Assembly (NCBI GenBank): GCA_937899075.1
Contig: CALDJX010000182.1
Location: forward strand, 1-35,632
DNA: 35,632 nucleotides
Source of the DNA: an uncultured Planctomyces sp.
GTDB taxonomy: Bacteria; Planctomycetota; Planctomycetia; Planctomycetales; Planctomycetaceae
Direction of reading: 5' to 3'
Every line of letters starts with the position of its first letter. Position 1 is the first letter of the stretch. The position numbers and the translations under genes are program-made. Below the pieces are notes generated by a model. It had not been told where the DNA came from and did no database searches. It saw nothing but the letters and a program-made list of their open reading frames with translations. This document shows, one piece after another, positions 22,956 to 26,985 of the stretch.

Positions 22956-24086
22956 CTACTTGAGAATCTCAGCCACTTGTTGATGACTGAGTACGTTCAT
23001 GACGAGCGGCTGTGAGAGGTCATCTTGAGACTGTTGCCACGTTGCGACCAGGCCAGCTTTCGTTGAGACGACGTCGACGTAACGGCTGCAGCCGGTTCCG
23101 TACGGGCTGATGAACTGCGGCAGGTACTTCGACAATCGTTCGATGTTTTCGAAGCTGCCGTTCTGAATGAACGCCACGCCGCCGAGTTCCTCGCACGAGT
23201 ATCCTCGCGGGCGTTTAACCGCCGTTGAATGTTCGTCCAGGTCACGCAAAGACTCGCCGCCGTCGTAGAAGAACAGACTCGCGTCAACGTCGGTGAACGC
23301 TCCAACTTTCGGAACATCCACCACGCAGGTTCCGCGAGTCATCGCGACATCCCATGTTGTTCCGCGAGGGAAGAAGTCGTATTCCGTATCGCCGAATGGC
23401 GGAGTCGTCGTGACATCATTCGCGGTGTCGGCGGATGCCGTTCGAAAGCCGGTATTCGAACTCGACCAACTGAAAGGATGGCTGCAGAACAGCAGGTTCA
23501 GGTCGTTGTCGGCTCGTTCGTAAAGGAACGGGTCTTTGACATGCAGCCAACGCAGATCCGAACACGCGGCCACGGTTTCAAGAGACGATTGCTTCAAACC
23601 TTCGAGCGTGTTGGCGGCCAGTCGTTCGGTCGTCCAGACGCCCGTTCCGGGTTTGAGATAACTTTCGAAACCTTTCGGGTAGCCGACTCCGTCCTTTTCC
23701 GTCGAGACATAAAGCTCATAGCCGTTTGACGTGCGTCGCAACGCGCTGCCTTCGATCGAGAGAACTGTTCGATCTCCGATGTTGAGATCCGGCTTCGAGA
23801 AGCTGAGCGATTTCTCCCAGCTCGTCCCGCCGTCATTCGAGGTGAAGACGGCCAGTTCCAGGCCTCGTTGTCCCGCGGCAACCCCGGTCCGCGAGTCGCC
23901 GTGATTTCGGTATCGGCCGACGACGTGCAGGTCGCCATTTGAGTCTTCAATCGTATTGCCGCCTCCGAACCAGAAGCCGGTCGATTGTTGCTGAGCGGGC
24001 ACAATGATTCGCGCGAGCTTCTGATCGATCAGAGCGTTGGCAAGATTCGCGAGTCGTTCTTCCTGGGTGGCGGACAATGCAGCCAT
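22956..24086 (-). CDS. Sialidase-like beta-propeller protein of unknown function
   Basis: This 376-residue protein has no signal peptide, so it is probably cytoplasmic unless exported otherwise. One clear Asp-box (S-x-D-x-G-x-T-W; SNDGGTSWEKS at about 83-93) and the long beta-rich body with repeated F/Y-W turns suggest a sialidase/BNR-type propeller. Other notable pieces are GFWFGGGNTIEDSNGDLHVV near the start and LVATWQQSQDDLSQPL near the end, which resemble neighbouring blades. The Arg triad of true sialidases cannot be assigned by eye, so the substrate is unknown. AGGA lies 10 bases before ATG 24086. It is convergent with ftsH and divergent from the repeat protein. Confidence 0.7.
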   Translation of the reverse strand: MAALSATQEERLANLANALIDQKLARIIVPAQQQSTGFWFGGGNTIEDSNGDLHVVGRYRNHGDSRTGVAAGQRGLELAVFTSNDGGTSWEKSLSFSKPDLNIGDRTVLSIEGSALRRTSNGYELYVSTEKDGVGYPKGFESYLKPGTGVWTTERLAANTLEGLKQSSLETVAACSDLRWLHVKDPFLYERADNDLNLLFCSHPFSWSSSNTGFRTASADTANDVTTTPPFGDTEYDFFPRGTTWDVAMTRGTCVVDVPKVGAFTDVDASLFFYDGGESLRDLDEHSTAVKRPRGYSCEELGGVAFIQNGSFENIERLSKYLPQFISPYGTGCSRYVDVVSTKAGLVATWQQSQDDLSQPLVMNVLSHQQVAEILK

Positions 24087-24479
24087 GTGAAGTTGATCCT
24101 GAGAGGAGTGGTTGTTGTCGATTCATGAAGCAGGCACCGGTGCTGACTGCCAACTGAGTTTTGACGAATCGCTCCAATCGACTCAACGCTGGCGACGGCA
24201 AAAGAGCGGCGAGATCGTCGAATCGTCGGCAACGATATCAGATGTACCCCGTTCCGGTTATGACGGACGTGATCGCCGCAACTCTATTTTGCGTGCCTTA
24301 CGCTTCTTTACGGCTTGTGGGGGCACTCGTATCATGCCGGCTCGGTCTATACCGTCAAACCATCATGTCGCGTTTTTCGACGACCAAAAAGCAACGATCA
24401 CACGGTAACTGCAAGGGCTCTGGAGAAACAGATATTCGAGTAGTTGCGAATTCAGCGGGCACAAACATGCGGGCAAAAC
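24087..24479. other. Divergent intergenic region before the repeat protein
   Basis: These 393 bases separate the sialidase-like gene from the repeat-protein gene. Short frames pass through it, but none has coding character. No clear hairpin, promoter or repeat was recognised; it should hold both promoters. Confidence 0.35.
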
Positions 24480-25481
24480 ATGTCAAAGAAGCGAACGCGG
24501 GCTGTCAAAGGAGCGGGCCAGAGAGCAAACCCACTTGCCAGAAAAGTTCCCCATCGAGAAGCCGTCTGGCTGGAAGGACCAGTTCCGACCGGCTACTGGC
24601 TGTCGGCTGACAATCGTCGGCTGTATCTGATCTGGCTGGGGCAGCGACTTGGGTTTCGGACGCTCGACGACTTTTATCAAATCAAGACAAGCGACTTCAA
24701 ATTGAACCGAGGCAGCGGCGTGCTGCTGCATTGCTGGGGCAGTTCGTCGGTCACTGCCGTCATGGAGACCTTTCCCGATCACGGTTGGATCGAGTGGTTG
24801 TTCGTGTCCTGCCCGAGATCGTTCTGGGCTGATCGCAAGAATCATCGCCGCTACATGAAGTGGCTCGCGGAGCAATGCGGCGTTGACGAGCCGGACGACT
24901 GGTACCGCATTACGAATCGAGACTTTCGAACGCACAAAGGCGGAGCATTTCTGCTCTACTATGAGAGCACGATTTCGGAAGCGGTGAAGGCTTACCTTCC
25001 AAAACGAAGGTGGAACGAATGGCAATTCGGAAAGACGCCAAAGAACTTCTGGGCTGACCGAACCAACCGGGTTCGTTATATGAAATGGCTGGGCAAGCGT
25101 CTGGGATGCAGAAAACTGGACGACTGGTACGGAGTCACTCGCAAAGATTTTGAGCGGAATTACGGCAACCAGTTGATGAAGCACTACAATGGCTCACCAC
25201 TGGCCGCTGCGATGGACTGCTTTTCGAATCACGAATGGCTCGAATGGAAGTTCGCTCGCGTTCCGGTCGGCTTCTGGAAGACGAAGAAGAATCGAGAGCG
25301 GTATCTCGTCTGGTTGGAAAAGAAGCTGAAGATTCGCAAACCCGAAGACTGGAACCGAGTCCGCCGAGTGGACTTCAAAGATAACTTCGGAGGCGGTCTG
25401 CTGGCGATGTATCGATCGGTCGAATCGCTGCTGAAGAAATCAGGTCGCACGAAAGCAATCAAGAGTGGCACCCGTCGTTGA
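24480..25481 (+). CDS. Protein with four approximately 75-residue W/Y-rich repeats, function unknown
   Basis: This 333-residue basic protein has no signal peptide. After a K/R-rich tail (1-30) it is almost entirely a tandem repeat: units begin at FW/YW at 39, 115, 190 and 265, a spacing of 75-76. Each unit follows F-W-x5-N-R-x2-Y-x2-W-L, then L-G-x-R-x2-D-D-W-Y, D-F, G-x3-L, then x-S-x3-A, and ends W-x-E-W-x-F. The last unit stops before the W-x-E-W-x-F part. No catalytic motif was recognised. I recall repeats of this pattern mainly in predicted proteins of algae and glomeromycete fungi, unverified. The basic N-terminus suggests nucleic-acid contact, an inference only. ATG 24480 is chosen over 24444. 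Its stop overlaps the GTG start of pabB by 17 bases, suggesting co-transcription. Confidence 0.8.
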   Translation: MSKKRTRAVKGAGQRANPLARKVPHREAVWLEGPVPTGYWLSADNRRLYLIWLGQRLGFRTLDDFYQIKTSDFKLNRGSGVLLHCWGSSSVTAVMETFPDHGWIEWLFVSCPRSFWADRKNHRRYMKWLAEQCGVDEPDDWYRITNRDFRTHKGGAFLLYYESTISEAVKAYLPKRRWNEWQFGKTPKNFWADRTNRVRYMKWLGKRLGCRKLDDWYGVTRKDFERNYGNQLMKHYNGSPLAAAMDCFSNHEWLEWKFARVPVGFWKTKKNRERYLVWLEKKLKIRKPEDWNRVRRVDFKDNFGGGLLAMYRSVESLLKKSGRTKAIKSGTRR

Positions 25482-26985
25482 AGAGTTGAAAGTCGTCCCG
25501 TCACCAGCAGACGCGTTGCAGGCGTTTGCTGGCTGTGACGGTTTGATCCTCTTCGACAGTGCCCTGCAACGAGACCGTTTGGGGCGATATTCGTTTCTCA
25601 CTGCTGACCCGATCGCCACCTTTGAAGTTGAACGGGCGACGTTCGGCGACTCGCCGTTCGAGTCGGTCCGTGCCGCCGTTGCTCGATTGAATGATCGTTT
25701 CAGTCTGAGTCGGTTGTCGGACTTGCCACCGTTTCAAGGCGGCGTGGCGGGCCTGCTTTCGTATGAGCTTGGTGGTTGCTGGGAACGCATCGCGCGAACT
25801 GGCAGAGACGAATTCGAGCTGCCCGACGCATGGTTCGGGATTTACGACTGGGTCATCGCGTGGGATCACCAGCAGAACCGAGCTTGGGTCATTTCTCACG
25901 GGCTGCCGAAGCTTGATTCGCAGGATGCTGACAGTCTTCAACCCTCAATCTCCAATTCCGATCTGAGCAGTTGTCAGGACAGAGCGGCTGCGCGAATCCG
26001 AGAGGTGCTGGCAAAGCTGTCGTCGGCGAATACTGAACCGTCAAACGACGACCTTAACGAAGCCTCACAGGACGTGCCGGAAGCCGAGCTTGCGCCCCAG
26101 CATCCACTTCCTGGCTGGGACGGTGTGACCTCTGACTTTTCTCGTGATGAATATCTGGCCGCTGTCGCGCGAGTCATCGAGTACATCCACGCGGGCGACG
26201 TCTTTCAGGCGAACGTTTCGCAACGATTGCTGGCTCGGTGCAATCTTCCGCCCACCGAACTTTATTCAACGTTGCGGCGTTGCAATCCTGCGCCGTTTGC
26301 AGGGTTTCTTGCTCACAATGACTGGGCGATCGTTTCGGCTTCTCCGGAACGGTTTATTCGAGTTGAAAACGGAGTCGTGGAAACTCGCCCCATCAAAGGG
26401 ACTCGGCAGCGACGAACCGGCCCGGAAGCCGACCTTTTCACACGCGACGAGTTACGACAAAGCGAAAAAGACGTCGCCGAGAATGTGATGATCGTCGACT
26501 TGCTCCGCAACGATCTGTCGCGTGTGTGTGAGCCGGGTTCGATCTCCGTGCCGGAACTCTGCGTTGTCGAGACTTACGAAACCGTCCAGCACCTGGTCTC
26601 GGAAGTTCGCGGAACATTGAAGCAGGGCAGGGGGCAACGCGGAGAGAAGTCTGACATCTGGTCGCTGCTGGCCGCGTCGTTTCCCGGCGGATCGATTACC
26701 GGTGCTCCGAAAGTGCGAGCGATGGAGATTATCTCGGAGTTGGAGCCGACCGCCCGCGGTCCTTATTGCGGATGCTTGTTCTACTCCTGCTTTGACGGCA
26801 CCTTTGACAGCAGTATTCTCATTCGGTCGTTCGTGTGGCGGCGAGGCTGGGTGCAGTGCCGAGTCGGCGGCGGAATCGTTGCTCAGTCGAACCCCGTGGC
26901 GGAATACGAAGAAACATTGCACAAGGCGGAAGGGATGTTGCGAGCACTCCAGCAGTCCGGACTTTGCGAGCCTCGTGCGAAATAG
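25465..26985 (+). CDS. pabB: Aminodeoxychorismate synthase component I (PabB)
   Basis: This 506-residue chorismate-utilising enzyme adds ammonia to chorismate to make 4-amino-4-deoxychorismate for folate. The decisive residue is the lysine in TRPIKGTRQR (K311): PabB enzymes have PIKGT, whereas anthranilate synthase TrpE has PIAGT. Other family motifs are GDVFQANVSQR, VSASPERF, DLLRNDLSRV, PGGSITGAPK and YCGCLFYSC, ending with VGGGIVAQSNPVAEYEET. The N-terminal domain is Trp-binding-fold-like. The start is GTG 25465, inside the end of the repeat-protein gene; no better start lies nearby. The glutaminase subunit follows eight bases later, completing the synthase. No pabC is visible. Confidence 0.9.
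   Translation: MAPVVEELKVVPSPADALQAFAGCDGLILFDSALQRDRLGRYSFLTADPIATFEVERATFGDSPFESVRAAVARLNDRFSLSRLSDLPPFQGGVAGLLSYELGGCWERIARTGRDEFELPDAWFGIYDWVIAWDHQQNRAWVISHGLPKLDSQDADSLQPSISNSDLSSCQDRAAARIREVLAKLSSANTEPSNDDLNEASQDVPEAELAPQHPLPGWDGVTSDFSRDEYLAAVARVIEYIHAGDVFQANVSQRLLARCNLPPTELYSTLRRCNPAPFAGFLAHNDWAIVSASPERFIRVENGVVETRPIKGTRQRRTGPEADLFTRDELRQSEKDVAENVMIVDLLRNDLSRVCEPGSISVPELCVVETYETVQHLVSEVRGTLKQGRGQRGEKSDIWSLLAASFPGGSITGAPKVRAMEIISELEPTARGPYCGCLFYSCFDGTFDSSILIRSFVWRRGWVQCRVGGGIVAQSNPVAEYEETLHKAEGMLRALQQSGLCEPRAK

Follow-up and report, generated by a model that had tools for sequence, protein, structure and literature searches.

A nuclease-free tandem array of helical modules of about 75 residues, putatively a site-specific DNA-binding protein, in a planctomycete

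The window analyzed here, a 35,632-nt stretch of DNA from an uncultured Planctomyces sp. (contig CALDJX010000182.1), carries on its plus strand an open reading frame at 24480-25481 that begins with ATG and encodes a product of 333 aa with a pI of 10.2, 19 tryptophans, and 14 tyrosines. Within the genus, this gene sits at a fixed locus, with the gene at 22956-24086 on one side and pabB on the other, and, as the sequence-only reading had stated, its last codons overlap the start of pabB, by 17 nt if pabB begins at GTG. The features of the locus are as follows.

24454..24486, plus strand: leader spanning the start codon, an imperfect tandem repeat (GCGGGCACAAACATG / GCGGGCAAAACATG) conserved in four species
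24480..25481, plus strand: coding sequence of the four-unit repeat protein, including the stop codon; frame conserved, dN/dS 0.06-0.13
24480..24581, plus strand: N-terminal basic tail and residues preceding unit 1; model confidence low at residues 1-14
24582..24803, plus strand: unit 1, full; profile E value 1.1e-27
24810..25028, plus strand: unit 2, full; profile E value 1.0e-29
25035..25253, plus strand: unit 3, full; profile E value 2.1e-29
25260..25418, plus strand: unit 4, truncated, profile positions 1-54 of 74; profile E value 9.2e-18
25465..25481, plus strand: overlap of 17 nt with pabB (25465-26985; presumed start codon GTG), kept in genus members

Cutting the product at P-x-x-[YF]-W yields units of 76, 75, 75, and 73 aa, and when these were aligned with each other, all six pairs scored above shuffled sequences (z = 19-28). 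A profile built from relatives and searched in the 8-Mb host genome matched the four units with E values of 1e-29 to 9e-18 and revealed no further copy there. Four units of about 75 residues had been proposed; the repeat is real, but because the fourth unit spans only profile positions 1-54 of 74 and lacks the terminal WxEWxF found in units 1 to 3, only three of the units are full, and the last is truncated. Other details of that proposal likewise needed amendment: FW is present at 115, 190, and 265, but unit 1 has YW at 39-40, and the motif WLxxxLGxRxxDDWY, recognizable in outline in every unit, is exact only in unit 3, with DDFY in unit 1, WLAEQCGVDEPDDWY in unit 2, and WLEKKLKIRKPEDWN in unit 4. 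The array alone has a pI of 9.8 and a net charge of +19. The predicted product consists of the tail plus the four units, with no catalytic nuclease domain, in keeping with the suggestion of a binding array rather than an enzyme.

AlphaFold2, supplied with a 31-sequence alignment, predicted an all-helical array with confidence (mean pLDDT 91, pTM 0.79), in which each unit comprises one long helix and about four short ones. Foldseek comparison of the array with the PDB and BFVD returned nothing at an E value of ≤0.001 and no known DNA-binding fold, the weak matches being to TPR- and HEAT-type proteins, with E values of >1 and TM-scores of ≤0.2. The K/R-rich N-terminal tail had been taken as a hint of nucleic acid. 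A connection with nucleic acid does exist, but it comes from the fusion of relatives to nuclease domains, not from the tail, which is predicted to be disordered (pLDDT about 40, residues 1-14).

Direct searches with the protein in Pfam, NCBIfam, PHROGs, PADLOC, and PDB sequences gave no match above chance, and a literature search found no publication naming DUF4046 or the four-unit repeat. Relatives are present in 25 of 150 genomes of the host's family, in 8 of 51 genomes of another family, reached via a record labeled Phycisphaeraceae, and in at least 2 of the 392 genomes of a phylum-wide sample, the window's own included, a lower bound since 14 candidates per genome were scored. Pattern scanning based on the protein alone gave no relatives; IUPAC patterns of unit DNA yielded 34 loci among 84,980 species genomes, mostly in Planctomycetota, with single matches outside that phylum in genomes labeled Victivallaceae, UASB270, and Deltaproteobacteria. 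Family proteins carry three to six units and are nearly always encoded by one or two genes per genome, with no repeated mobile copies; Rfam searches found no intron in the window or with the nuclease-bearing relatives L055, L063, and L082 described below. Most four-unit arrays are strongly basic, and several relatives with three units are close to neutral or acidic (net charge of -5 for L067 and -4 for L070). The family, which the sequence-only reading had called undescribed, is real, widespread, and without a Pfam model of its own, but its unit is distantly homologous to PF13255 DUF4046. The resemblance to predicted algal and fungal proteins that the same reading had suggested is no more than a lead.

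Within the genus, dN/dS values of 0.06 to 0.13 indicate strong purifying selection. In nine four-unit orthologues, unit order is preserved, as are some residues specific to particular units, while the units differ from each other; by a strict criterion, the unit-specific conserved profile columns are 1, 36, 52, and 55, with 46, 56, 58, and similar columns nearly so, a pattern that structural roles can also yield. One genus member (G031; L010, 1169-1872 on G031:C129) has at the same locus a copy broken by stops and frame breaks, and the gene can therefore be lost; G031 is a draft genome, yet the genes flanking the broken copy read intact.

The leader (24454-24482 in this comparison) shows 96.6% identity among the four species, versus 47.5% for the remaining upstream region. 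It occurs within the genus almost only at the repeat gene, and it is altered in G031, the species with the broken copy. It is absent from other genera, and a tandem repeat before the start codon is not a general feature of the family; even in the genus, this repeat is barely longer than shuffled sequences give, and only its conservation is striking. The leader could be a candidate operator or target site or, equally, a translation signal. Its first repeat copy holds an out-of-frame ATG, located 13 nt upstream of the start codon, whose reading frame (window 24467-24610) overlaps the start of the gene. A second conserved upstream stretch (window 24285-24313; 86% identity in the four species) contains a GCGTGCCTTACGC hairpin, with a promoter-like hexamer pair nearby.

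Three relatives, from unrelated sources, carry an additional C-terminal domain. L055, encoded by a viral contig, has four units and then a domain containing LDIFIPSLKLAIEYQGQQHY...RDKEKRLLCEKNNIILIEIPY; nuclease-type domains of the same kind terminate L063 of bacterium UASB270, which has at least three units and whose 5' side enters masked sequence, and the six-unit L082 of a Deltaproteobacteria MAG. These three domains have 33 invariant positions in common and match homing endonuclease, intron encoded nuclease, and HNH endonuclease families in PHROG with E values of 1e-23 to 1e-7, while tblastn with L055 retrieved phage proteins annotated as "group I intron-associated VSR homing endonuclease" and "homing endonuclease EDxHD." Across 17 sequences, phage homing nucleases included, the D, E, H, and D/K positions of the domain show little or no variation. 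The AlphaFold model of L055 resembles the catalytic domain of I-Bth0305I (3r3p_B; probability 0.99, TMt 0.67) and Vsr (1cw0 and 1vsr; TMt 0.53 and 0.57); because the Foldseek E values were near 1, the fold assignment leans on probability, TM-score, and PHROG matches together, and since nuclease profiles found no match in a PDB sequence search, 3r3p and Vsr were reached by fold comparison only. By these comparisons, L055, L063, and L082 end in a predicted homing-endonuclease domain of the EDxHD/Vsr type.

Most phage proteins with this nuclease domain (L095-L173) have no recognizable unit, and the same is true of a second UASB270 protein of 390 aa (L239; G518:C15:434861-435157). A separate nuclease acting in trans was considered and rejected, as none was found in 20 genomes, including that of the window, by a nuclease profile that does recover the domain in the genomes with fusions. 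Three further phage proteins, L224, L225, and L226, from IMG/VR contigs, contain diverged units (profile E values of 1e-9 to 6e-15 in the set searched) between a Cys-rich N-terminal segment and a C-terminal domain. For L225, the N-terminal segment matches part of a homing-endonuclease PHROG (1.2e-13), and this protein also has a subthreshold match to DUF4046 (E value of 0.0011). The C termini of all three are weakly similar to phage endonuclease I, the best E value of 0.0014 falling short of the cutoff, and these proteins possibly represent an unnamed type of homing endonuclease.

We lean, with some reserve, toward reading the window protein as a nuclease-free tandem array of helical modules of about 75 residues that is putatively a site-specific DNA-binding protein and perhaps a regulator. 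Because modules of this family elsewhere precede nuclease domains of the homing-endonuclease type, the protein is probably DNA binding without the cutting part. In the fused relatives, three to six modules would hold the C-terminal nuclease on a long target; the planctomycete array would lie along DNA by itself, several units making contact in series, the nuclease having perhaps been lost here or gained elsewhere. A regulatory role is a guess, as is the idea that the protein might control its own expression via the conserved leader. The nuclease fusions, the basic charge, the preserved unit order and unit-specific residues, and the purifying selection argue for a DNA-binding array; against it stand the nonbasic relatives, the lack of a known DNA-binding fold, the unit-free phage nucleases, and the absence of a shared genomic context showing a target.

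Also counting against DNA binding is the occurrence of the Vsr-like fold in RNA-binding proteins, as the RNA-associated RAP/FASTK domain (PMC11879112). The array might accordingly bind RNA, as do helical-repeat proteins whose last domain is a Vsr-like RAP domain, affecting the translation or stability of an mRNA and possibly acting on its own leader, within which the start codon lies. The L055 model does give weak fold matches to mitoribosome proteins of Toxoplasma and Tetrahymena, but their TM-scores are ≤0.18, and the fused domain resembles homing endonucleases by sequence and retains their nearly invariant D, E, H, and D/K positions; we regard binding to RNA as unlikely. We think it more improbable still that the array is a scaffold for peptides or proteins, with the nuclease fusions a secondary use: helical repeats often bind proteins, and both the TPR/HEAT resemblance and the relatives that are not basic would fit, but that resemblance is of the low significance given above, and the partner domains that recur are nuclease-like. 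Nuclease-bearing relatives and the broken copy in one genus member would also suit a homing-endonuclease remnant with no present function, an explanation made very improbable by the low dN/dS, the fixed locus in the genus, and the spread of the family across Planctomycetota. That the protein is coupled to pabB in translation and contributes to p-aminobenzoate or folate synthesis, as the overlap kept in the genus might suggest, is scarcely credible, and we rejected it, as every relative examined outside the genus has neighbors other than pabB. No neighbor is common to relatives of other genera, sharing being limited to close relatives; because neighbors vary from locus to locus outside the genus, pabB does not explain the repeat gene, and the adjacency, which the earlier reading had offered as a clue to function, is a genus-level position that says little about it.

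If the protein is a site-specific DNA-binding array, each unit, in a series of three to six, may recognize a short stretch of DNA by means of a few positions specific to that unit, which would make the units a new modular class, re-orderable in principle, common to the planctomycete proteins, the DUF4046 proteins of Bacillota, and two types of nuclease; we advance this extension as a tentative and rather doubtful one. DNA binding would provide a testable function for an unannotated family and, by homology, for Pfam DUF4046. If the units bind along DNA one after another and their specificities can be separated, DNA recognition would gain a new modular scaffold, and the family would illustrate the exchange of parts between homing endonucleases and host DNA-binding proteins.

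The closest known family is PF13255 DUF4046, a Pfam family of Bacillota without an assigned function. Neither the window protein nor 25 family members reach its curated Pfam cutoff, but the units of DUF4046 proteins align with the planctomycete units (hhalign probability 97.5%, E value of 2.2e-11, 72 columns), and an Alicyclobacillus plasmid protein (L174) serves as a bridge, having four diverged units by the family profile and also passing the DUF4046 cutoff. The two are, on these alignments, distant homologues at the superfamily level that have a repeat unit in common, and the planctomycete proteins differ in their WLG..LG and DWY signatures, their more regular 75-aa unit, and their hosts. 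DUF4046-family genes lie beside or near spore germination genes in all five loci read (L174 and L178-L181, on Alicyclobacillus and Priestia plasmids), four of which come from closely related Priestia plasmids. TALE-type arrays, with a unit of about 34 aa, offer an analogy only, as tandem arrays of one helical module; the unit here is about 75 aa, and its copies are few and diverged. With the EDxHD/Vsr homing endonucleases, such as I-Bth0305I, the family is linked through the three array relatives that end in such a domain, whereas the window protein has no nuclease domain and its genome yields none by the nuclease profile. In phage homing endonucleases, the nuclease is joined to DNA-binding regions that are elongated and modular (PMC3943268), and in the fused relatives the unit array takes the same place in the protein. 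None of the proteins scanned matched a NUMOD model of Pfam, and, unlike NUMOD and the modular regions of homing nucleases, the array repeats one larger unit that occurs also without a nuclease. A modular binding region in homing-type nucleases is already known; a nuclease-free tandem array of one unit is a new variation on it.
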